Positions 838 through 50,221 of a stretch of DNA of 64,000 nucleotides are shown piece after piece. The translations under genes and the position numbers were made by a program. The DNA lies in assembly GCF_038022665.1 (NCBI RefSeq), contig NZ_CP150629.1, positions 2,462,480 through 2,526,479 of the forward strand. Reading direction: 5' to 3'. Position 1 is the stretch's first letter; each line of letters opens with the position of its first letter. The notes below the pieces were generated by a model. It was not told where the DNA came from, made no database searches, and saw nothing but the letters and a program-made list of their open reading frames with translations. Origin of the DNA: Methanolobus sp. WCC4 (lineage in GTDB: Archaea > Halobacteriota > Methanosarcinia > Methanosarcinales > Methanosarcinaceae).

Positions 838-969
838 GGCTCTGTAGAAATCCTCTACTTTGATATAAACCACAAATGAACACAGATTAAAAATACTGAT
901 ATCTGCGTGTATCTGTGTTTATCTGCGGTTATTTTGTATCTCACAAAAAGATAGGATTTCTACAGAGCC
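838..969. mobile_element. MITE-like element, 132 bp, 17-bp perfect terminal inverted repeats
   Basis: The left end 838-854 begins GGCTCTGTAGAAATCCT, and 953-969 is its exact reverse complement. The 8-bp direct repeat GAAATTAG flanks the element perfectly at 830-837 and 970-977, as expected for a target-site duplication. The 98-bp interior has no coding capacity. It carries a tract of the type 'cacagataaacacagatacacgc' on the minus strand, a low-complexity motif. An 8-bp duplication with ends GGCTCTGT would suit mobilisation by an IS6-like or similar transposase, but that assignment is inference. The perfect ends and duplication suggest recent insertion. A 14-bp copy of the end (TCTGTAGAAATCCT) also occurs alone at 10954-10967. 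Confidence 0.85.
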
Positions 970-10895: not shown

Positions 10896-10974
10896 AATTA
10901 CTTTTTTAGCATTGGACTGAACAAGAATGATATCTTGAATAGAAAATGGAGAGTCTGTAGAAATCCTGCTAATT

Positions 10975-11330
10975 GAAACTTTGCCCTCATAATTTTTCAA
11001 TTACTGGAACATTTCAATAGTCTTCAGGATAGTAGTGAAGGAACGTGCCGCCTGCGGCGGATGGTAGTATTGTTCCTTGTTTTTCAATGATCTTTGATAG
11101 ATCCATCAGAAACCCGTGGATGCAGAAGATAATAGGTTTGAATGATCGGAAGTCATGAATAACTAAGACCATCCCGGAGGGTCACAGCGAAGCCGGCACA
11201 GTCCGAAAAGGTGACTAAAATATTCTGTTGGTTTCAACTCTTTTCCCGGACACCAGTAATTAGAGATCGCGACATTTACCATAAGAATCATAGGTGCGAT
11301 CACGACAGAGATGCAGGGCCACATAAGCAA
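10975..11330. repeat. Dispersed structured repeat, copy A
   Basis: This copy aligns by eye with 49368-49725. The strongest blocks are GTGAAGGAACG..CCGCCTGCGGCGGATGG at 11034-11064 and, near 11153-11213, TCATGAATAACTA, CATCCCG-AGGGTC, GCGAAGCCGGCACA and TCCGAAAAGGTGA. The first block folds as CCGCC-TGC-GGCGG, enclosed in this copy by GGAAC/GTTCC. Weaker similarity continues to about 11330. Reading frames are not conserved between copies, so this looks like an RNA or DNA structural repeat rather than a gene. A lone 14-bp match to the MITE end lies just left, at 10954-10967. Confidence 0.7.
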
Positions 11331-11386
11331 TTTAAACAAGAGTCCCTAAAGATCAAAAATAGAAAAAAAGGAGGTGAAATGACCCA

Positions 11387-11877: not shown

Positions 11878-12271
11878 ATGAGGGATCGCTTTTGTTGATG
11901 CTTACAGAGAAACAGTACAGATAACTGAGAATATCGGGGAACAAAACGACAGGGATGTCAGAAAGACGATCGAAGGACTTCCACCTTCTGCAAAACTCGT
12001 CTTTAAGGTTCTCGAATATGGCGGACTCCTTACACAAAAGGAGATAGCCGAACAAAGTTACCTGCCTCCACGTACCATCAGATATGCACTTGGCAGACTG
12101 AAGGACGAGGATTTCCTGCAGGAAAGGTTCTATTTCAAGGATGCAAGACAAAGCCTCTATGGCCTGAAGAATGTGCCGGACATTGGAAGAACTCCAATGG
12201 ACGATGCTCCGAAAATAGAACAGAGGATGCTAAATATGAATGCAGAGAATTTTGAACTCGCAGTCATGTGA
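11878..12271 (+). pseudogene. Winged-helix transcriptional regulator with +1 frameshift after codon 5 or 6
   Basis: AAGGAG at 11862-11867 precedes ATG 11878, but this frame stops at TGA after six codons. A +1 shift leads into a 125-codon frame (from GTT at 11894 to TGA 12269-12271) encoding a clear HTH protein. A helix-turn-helix region TQKEIAEQSYLPPRTIRYAL is followed by a wing (LKDEDFLQERFYFKDARQSLYGL), as in MarR-like archaeal regulators. The main frame has no ATG, GTG or TTG near its beginning. The shift lies near GGG or TTTT runs, so it could be a sequencing error, a recent mutation, or programmed slippage at CGC-TTT-TGT-TGA. The reading frame downstream looks fully preserved. Confidence 0.7.
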
Positions 12272-48564: not shown

Positions 48565-48851
48565 GCTTAAAACTAGAACTTCGATGTGGACGTTATCATA
48601 AGGGAAGGTTTTGCCTTTTCCGGGATAGCGTTCATATATCTACTTTTTTTGAAATCTTATAATTCTGCAGGAACTTGAGGAGCTTGCTCTGTGTATTTCT
48701 TACCTGTAAGGGATTCATAGAACCTGATACAAAAGTAGATAATACAGACATAGAAGACAAAACCATTATATCCCATAACCACCCTACTACCCCCGTTAGT
48801 AACACAAATACTATTGAGAATATTACTACATTTTACAAAGAAGGTTACATT

Positions 48852-49247
48852 ATGAGTGAAAAAATCGGAATTTTAGCTATTGGACACGGCAGCAGATTAC
48901 CATACAACAACCAGGTAGTCACAGAGATCGCTAACATGATCGCAGAGGCACATCCTGAGTACGTCGTAAAGGCAGGATTCATGGAGAACAGCGAGCCTAC
49001 CGTAGAAGAGGCACTCATGTCCTTTGAAGGAACAGGAGTAACAACCATCGCTGCAGCACCAGTCTTCCTTGCATCCGGAATCCACATCACAAAGGATATC
49101 CCTGCGATCCTCAAGCTCGACCCTGAGACAAACGAAGGAGAGCTCGAACTTGACGGAAACAAGGTCAGGATCGTATACGCAAAGCCTCTTGGAAGCGACG
49201 AGCTCATTGCAGACCTCATCTTCAAGAGAGCACAGGAAGTCCTTTAA
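48852..49247 (+). CDS. cfbA: Sirohydrochlorin cobaltochelatase/nickelochelatase, copy 1
   Basis: A 131-residue short class II chelatase (CbiX-S/CfbA) that inserts Co2+ for cobalamin or Ni2+ for coenzyme F430 into sirohydrochlorin. Metal-ligand histidines are in the start motif [14 protein letters not shown] (His12) and [11 protein letters not shown] (His78). The start 48852 is fixed by GAAGG 7 nt upstream and by match to copy 2; an upstream in-frame ATG would add an unrelated tail. The tandem paralogue is at 49826. A terminator follows directly. Confidence 0.93.
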
Positions 49248-49276: not shown

Positions 49277-49367
49277 AGCTTTATTATCCTGTTAGGGAAT
49301 ATTTCGTTTTATCTTGCAACAGGAATTGTTTAAGGATCTTGATTATGCAGGATCTATGTAAATTCCG

Positions 49368-49725
49368 TCTTTCAACTCGGCAATTTTCAATAACTGCATT
49401 ATTTCACTAGTTTTCAGGATGTCAGTGAAGGAACGCACCGCCTGCGGCGGATGGTTGCACTGTTTTTTGTTTTTGGATAATCCTTTGTTGAGCTATCAGA
49501 AACACAAGAACAAATAACAAGTTTGCCAAATAGGAACTCATGAATAACTATGATCATCCCGAAGGGTCCGGCGAAGCCGGCACATTCCGAAAAGGTGAAT
49601 AAGATAATTGGTTGACTGCAACTTATTTTCTACATACCGAGCACATAAAAACAGCGCTATTCCCCATAAGATCAATAATTGCGATAATGACAGACATACA
49701 CAACCTTATGAGCCATTCAAATAAG
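49368..49725. repeat. Dispersed structured repeat, copy B
   Basis: This copy is homologous by eye to 10975-11330. Conserved blocks are GTGAAGGAACG..CCGCCTGCGGCGGATGG at 49424-49454 and, near 49538-49600, TCATGAATAACTA, CATCCCG-AGGGTC, GCGAAGCCGGCACA and TCCGAAAAGGTGA. Hairpins: CCGCC-TGC-GGCGG, CCC-GAA-GGG (49558-49566) and CCGGC-GAA-GCCGG (49568-49580), the last more perfect than in copy A. It lies between the two cfbA copies. A 62-codon minus-strand frame at 49623-49811 is probably not coding because the frame is not kept in copy A. Confidence 0.7.
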
Positions 49726-49825
49726 AATCTCCTAATATCCCATATAGATTGCAAGTAAAGTCTGTCTCTTTTGCAAAGAGATATATACTTTCCTACTAAT
49801 GATATTTTCAAAAAGAAGGTATACT

Positions 49826-50221
49826 ATGAGTGAAAAAATTGGAATTCTGGCTATTGGGCACGGCAGCAAATTACCATATAACAATCAGGTAGTCACTTCG
49901 ATCGCTAACATGATCGCAGAGAAGCATCCTGAATATATCATCAAGGTGGGCTTTGTAGAGCACAGTGAACCCAAGGTCAAAGAGGCACTAATGTCCTTTG
50001 AAGGTACAGGTGTGACAAAAATAGCTGCAGCTCCTATATTCATGGCATCGGGAGTACACCTCACCGAGGACATCCCCGAGTTCCTTGATCTTGACCCTGA
50101 GACAAACGAAGGAGAGGTCGAGTTCGACGGACAGAAGGTGAAGATCACCTATGCGAAGCCTCTTGGAAGTGACAGGCTTATTGCGGACCTCATCTTCAAG
50201 AGAGTTCAGGAAGCTCTTTAA
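49826..50221 (+). CDS. cfbA: Sirohydrochlorin cobaltochelatase/nickelochelatase, copy 2
   Basis: A 131-residue paralogue of the gene at 48852, nearly identical in length and motifs ([22 protein letters not shown]). The upstream sequence AAAAGAAGGT..ACATT/ACT ATGAGTGAAAAAAT is shared with copy 1, as is the terminator design. The region duplicated in tandem and then diverged, perhaps so that one copy serves F430 (Ni) and the other cobamide (Co). Which is which cannot be read from sequence. Confidence 0.92.

Follow-up and report, generated by a model that had tools for sequence, protein, structure and literature searches.

A repeat family of Methanolobus interpreted as an IS5-type MITE with a conserved inverted pair of hairpin blocks

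Introduction

Prokaryotic MITEs derived from insertion sequences (IS), such as SM1-SM4 of Sulfolobus, are short, non-coding, intergenic elements with inverted ends and target duplications that occur in tens of copies, according to the part of PMC10969869 available to us. The repeat family analysed here resembles them in all of these properties and adds a conserved inverted pair of hairpins that is found in two orders and is constrained at orthologous sites; that part of the source describes no such element from Methanolobus. A second likeness is to the REP dimers, BIMEs and REPINs, which in the available sections of PMC3733652 are likewise intergenic pairs of inverted palindromes with a preferred spacing and both orders. 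The Methanolobus repeat differs from these in being part of an IS5-type MITE, in carrying no GTAG or CGTC tag and in occurring in a source genome that has no REP-associated tyrosine transposase (RAYT). Elements of the Correia/NEMIS, ERIC and SPRITE type resemble it in being MITE-like, with transcripts that fold and that may affect neighbouring genes, and are set apart by the ends, host domain and sequence given in the accessible portions of their descriptions (PMC10969869, PMC3733652). Within the genus itself, an IS5-family IS of about 1001 bp shares its terminal inverted repeats and the 8-bp length of its duplications with the repeat; unlike the repeat, it encodes a transposase and has no hairpin blocks, and its body is unrelated to that of the MITE as far as it was read. 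Among the papers listed by searches of an open-access library, none describes the repeat in its title or abstract opening, and the accessible part of the table in PMC12306157 has no Methanosarcinales among its archaeal genomes. The repeat constitutes a new family of MITEs, unusual in having a conserved pair of inverted hairpins that comes in two orders.

Results and discussion

The window, by which we mean the whole stretch of 64,000 nucleotides that was analysed, belongs to Methanolobus sp. WCC4, whose genome is a single contig of 2,851,899 bases (the source genome; G-numbers denote compared genomes and L-numbers element loci). The original prediction described two copies, 38 kb apart, of a repeat with conserved GC-rich hairpin blocks and drifting linkers that was not a gene. 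Both copies, here called A and B, are real (72% identity over 386 alignment columns, E 1e-63 by pairwise alignment), although the copy number is far above two, with about 43 in the genome. The conservation pattern was borne out, since identity per consensus column is about 0.9-1.0 within the hairpins compared with about 0.5-0.9 elsewhere (L030 was left out of these columns). The interval first proposed, 10975-11330, lies inside the element; the true ends of copy A are at 10951 and 11355 because the flanking duplication matches at 7 of 8 positions. Coordinates of both copies and of a related short element are collected in Table 1.

Table 1. Features of the repeat family located in the window
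Feature	Position	Strand	Basis or remark
Copy A, whole element, type I (long form), 405 bp	10951..11355	+	genome search, alignment
Copy A, left target duplication AAAATGGA	10943..10950		7/8 match with right flank, chance 0.0005
Copy A, right target duplication AAAATAGA	11356..11363		flank comparison
Copy A, left terminal inverted repeat, 2 mismatches in 17	10951..10968	+	
Copy A, right terminal inverted repeat, heavily decayed	11338..11355	-	position from alignment to other long copies
Copy A, block 1	11040..11065	+	hairpin CCGCC-TGC-GGCGG at 11048-11060
Copy A, block 2	11170..11213	+	hairpins CCC-GGA-GGG at 11173-11181 and a second at 11184-11196 (stem with two mismatches)
Copy B, whole element, type I, 400 bp	49341..49740	+	ends decayed, target duplication lost (2/8)
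Copy B, block 1	49430..49455	+	
Copy B, block 2	49555..49597	+	
Short MITE, 132 bp, same ends, no blocks	838..969		exact duplication GAAATTAG at 830-837 and 970-977

Copy A is flanked by two convergent genes, one for a PHO4 phosphate transporter and one for TusA, and no direct or inverted repeats were detected inside it at default thresholds. An open frame of 129 codons with a winged-helix (HTH_24) match is present at 11882-12271 (+); its first in-frame ATG/GTG/TTG comes only at 12173, and the ATG at 11878 is off by one, indicating a frameshift or an unusual start. Copy B is flanked by two tandem CbiX paralogues at 48675-49247 and 49799-50221 (+).

The element is bounded by the inverted repeat GGCTCTGTAGARATCCT. 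In an alignment of copies with their flanks, many start with GGCTCTGTAGARATCCTG and finish with its reverse complement, and the end sequence was found at 70 places in the source genome compared with 1 for a reversed control. Paired ends fall into three size classes: short MITEs without blocks, 132-194 bp from end to end (12 examined), block-bearing elements, mostly 304-461 bp between ends (36 examined), and insertion sequences with ends about 1000 bp apart. About a dozen block-free short MITEs like that at 838-969 of the window occur in the source genome.

The consensus of block 1 is GGAACGTGCCGCCTGCGGCGGATGGT and that of block 2 is CATCCCGGAGGGTCCGGCGAAGCCGGCACGATCCGAAAAG. Block 2 is homologous to block 1 in inverted form and slightly longer, with an extra small hairpin inserted; the reverse-complemented block-1 consensus aligns to the block-2 consensus with a score of 31.5, which 0.14% of mononucleotide shuffles and 0.5% of dinucleotide-type ones attained. 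After removal of one mis-hit (L029:1544-1606), the 77 block-1 and 75 block-2 hits gave 68 same-strand pairs, with pairing sought on one strand and 9 block-1 and 7 block-2 hits left unpaired. In 42 of the 68 pairs block 1 precedes block 2 (type I), with a start-to-start distance of 115-123 in all but one (41/42), and in the other 26 the order is reversed (type II; 85-285). At locus L096, block 1 was hit twice, once on each strand.

Genome-wide DNA search of the source genome returned 47 aligned pieces, of which the 30 strongest have E values of about 1e-25 or lower, and covariance models found 43 sites for block 2 and 38 for block 1. Across the 27 Methanolobus genomes, the same models detected block 2 in 19 and block 1 in 25. 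G001 has at least 131 block-2 sites, G007 at least 105 and G017 has 32, such counts being lower bounds in copy-rich genomes since 150 candidates were scored per genome. A search of the order, as had been proposed at the outset, covered 185 genomes and did find further copies, in 19 Methanolobus genomes; the 158 genomes from other genera of Methanosarcinales gave no match. Similarly, DNA search of 40 genomes matched 20 of 25 Methanolobus genomes (source included) and 0 of 15 others. A block-2 pattern matched nine stretches in about 85,000 species genomes, all of them in Methanolobus, including six in M. profundi, one in M. vulcani and one in M. psychrotolerans. A viral origin was also considered and set aside, as the same pattern had 0 matches in viral_contigs, where viral contigs alone were searched. 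Among the genomes searched, the repeat is restricted to the genus Methanolobus.

Several lines of evidence demonstrate the hallmarks of transposition. The flanks of 23 end-paired elements of the source genome, in which short MITEs, block elements and IS are pooled, match best at 8 bp (5.35 observed compared with 2.80 expected), and 8 of the 23 have a perfect 8-bp duplication, these being short MITEs and one IS. When block elements from all genomes were considered, matches of at least 7/8 were seen in 4 of 19 type I elements (0.17 expected) and in 6 of 17 type II elements (0.000 expected); in the source genome the duplications of most block-bearing copies have decayed. Insertion is clearest at one type II element: the source genome carries it without interruption (L042), and in G017 (L199) it is split by a nested 316-bp type I element with an exact 8-bp CAATGTTG on each side. 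Comparison of the filled with the empty site shows a clean insertion with an exact 8-bp duplication. A possible second empty site is the pair L027 (source) and L085 (G015), where the flanks align without the element in G015 and the junction is too diverged to read.

The elements of about 1001 bp that have the same ends encode a 309-residue DDE transposase (Pfam DDE_Tnp_1; NCBIfam IS5_2 at 225 bits, where the cut-off is 140), relatives of which are present in 23 of 27 Methanolobus genomes. Thirty transposase loci were examined, and at 13 of them the ends could be paired at a spacing of about 1 kb, the second end being poor in one case. Exact 8-bp duplications were found at six of those 13 (in the source genome, G040, G008 and G003, and two in G020). 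We take an 8-bp duplication to point to the ISH1 subgroup of the IS5 family. Because the ends and the duplication length are common to both, the IS5-family IS is probably, judging from these sequence features, the mover of the MITE, with its transposase acting in trans. Only about 17 bp are common to the ends of MITE and IS; the match to an IS that the original prediction had named as counting against it was accordingly found at the element ends and nowhere else in the element.

The repeat thus has the features of a MITE: it is short, non-coding, multi-copy and dispersed, with terminal inverted repeats, duplications of fixed length and ends common to an autonomous element. The case for a mobile element is strong, and the suggestion of a palindromic mobile repeat is upheld by the terminal inverted repeats, the filled and empty site, the IS5-family elements with the same ends and the 8-bp target duplications, for which a check had been advised and which recur at copies other than A. 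Taken as a whole, the repeat is very probably a MITE of Methanolobus with an IS5-type mover and paired hairpin blocks. This reading accounts for a repeat that is scattered in large numbers through a well-sampled genus of methanogens, one genome having at least 131 sites for block 2, and it points to a probable mover.

We next consider what the blocks may do. In eight comparisons of orthologous sites (source against G017, G007, G009 or G001), 44 of 528 block positions had changed and none was gapped; elsewhere in the element 311 of 1757 positions had changed, with 44 gap positions. Blocks therefore change at about half the rate of the other parts (Fisher p 5e-8), with the limitation that three of the eight comparisons use one source locus and are not independent, and that L024/L184 is without difference. 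One insertion is common to four genomes, namely the source, G007, G009 and G001 (for G007, one flank aligns). Copy B is present as the same insertion at the same site in G017, where its ends have decayed and its blocks have not. Such constraint on the interior after insertion is unexpected for a plain MITE. Since the block-free short MITEs keep the same ends and exact duplications, the blocks seem unneeded for movement, which makes constraint at the level of the host more likely. That the two hairpins are intact after end decay suggests that the host uses them. The presence of orthologous and empty sites in sequenced species makes both mobility and host role directly testable.

The elements are over-represented between convergent genes. 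Among 61 element-bearing gaps, 25 were convergent, 29 tandem and 7 divergent, compared with 21, 66 and 25, respectively, among 112 other gaps of the same loci (chi-square p 3e-5 by number, 1e-10 by length). The sample comprised 70 loci from the higher-scoring hits (the best 30 of the source genome, 20 of G017 and 20 of G001), and genes were taken as long open frames only, a way of calling that can misplace copies. Copy A, for example, was counted among the tandem cases since a spurious ORF of 154 codons takes the place of TusA, and its true setting is convergent. Two of ten block-free short MITEs were scored convergent, too few to compare.

Our leading guess for the blocks is a two-way signal at gene 3' ends. 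The blocks would act as hairpin signals for termination, processing or mRNA protection, working in either orientation of the element, and copies between convergent genes would be kept on account of these signals. We offer this proposal tentatively, as a real but doubtful possibility. The broader scenario, in which the mobile element spreads ready-made 3'-end hairpin signals that work in either orientation across the genus and the host has co-opted the block pair, retaining it after the ends decay, appears unlikely. In copy A, no intrinsic terminator was found by the bacterial consensus. The convergent bias fits a two-way role at transcript ends, although purging of copies from promoters would give a similar bias. 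A MITE that is selfish only, with hairpins that aid transposition or escape from removal and a placement that reflects purging from promoters and genes, is accordingly conceivable, if somewhat improbable. The depletion in divergent gaps and the recent expansions in G001 and G007 with intact blocks are consistent with it; the slower change of blocks at orthologous, immobile sites and the apparent dispensability of blocks for movement, judging from the short MITEs, argue against it and in favor of a host role.

It was also suggested at the outset that the repeat is a structured RNA, that is, a dispersed non-coding RNA gene or cis-regulatory RNA. Paired cells amount to 94.5% and 96.1% in the block hairpins, which would agree with such a role, as would the complementary arms of blocks 1 and 2, which could pair in either order. 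In addition, 195 intergenic small RNAs are reported from M. psychrophilus in the accessible part of PMC5378194. However, none of the RNA tests gave support. There was no Rfam match by gathering score or by E-value, and on both strands the folding energy of the block region was like that of shuffled sequences (z 0.12 and -1.24). Double changes were limited to two compensatory cells per block, with too little variation for more to be read from them, and none fell in the RNAalifold-predicted pairs of block 2. Covariation between the complementary arms was absent, and changes of wobble type had no clear strand bias. These results leave a structured RNA very unlikely and show that the hairpins are kept by sequence, not by compensation. 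The hairpin loops are mostly GNA when taken in the sense of block 2 (67/75 and 67/75, and 69/77 for block 1 on the opposite strand); GNA loops form very stable DNA minihairpins such as d(GCGAAGC). The hairpins are real and conserved, and a role at the DNA level is as open as one at the RNA level.

REP/BIME-like palindromes moved by a RAYT, to which the many intergenic copies of inverted homologous palindromes, head-to-head and tail-to-tail, bear a likeness, can hardly account for the repeat, as the blocks lie inside an end-bounded element with 8-bp duplications, the stem in the block consensus bears neither a GTAG nor a CGTC tag, and the source genome, G007 and G017, all rich in copies, have no RAYT (PF01797) protein, which is present in 13 of 27 Methanolobus genomes.

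Two further observations concern the arrangement of the blocks. At some sites (L064, L102 and L107) two block-bearing segments lie in tandem, and such tandem segments may be the source of both block orders. At the orthologous site L005 (source) and L191 (G017), the type I element is in opposite orientation, reflecting either an in-place inversion or an independent insertion.
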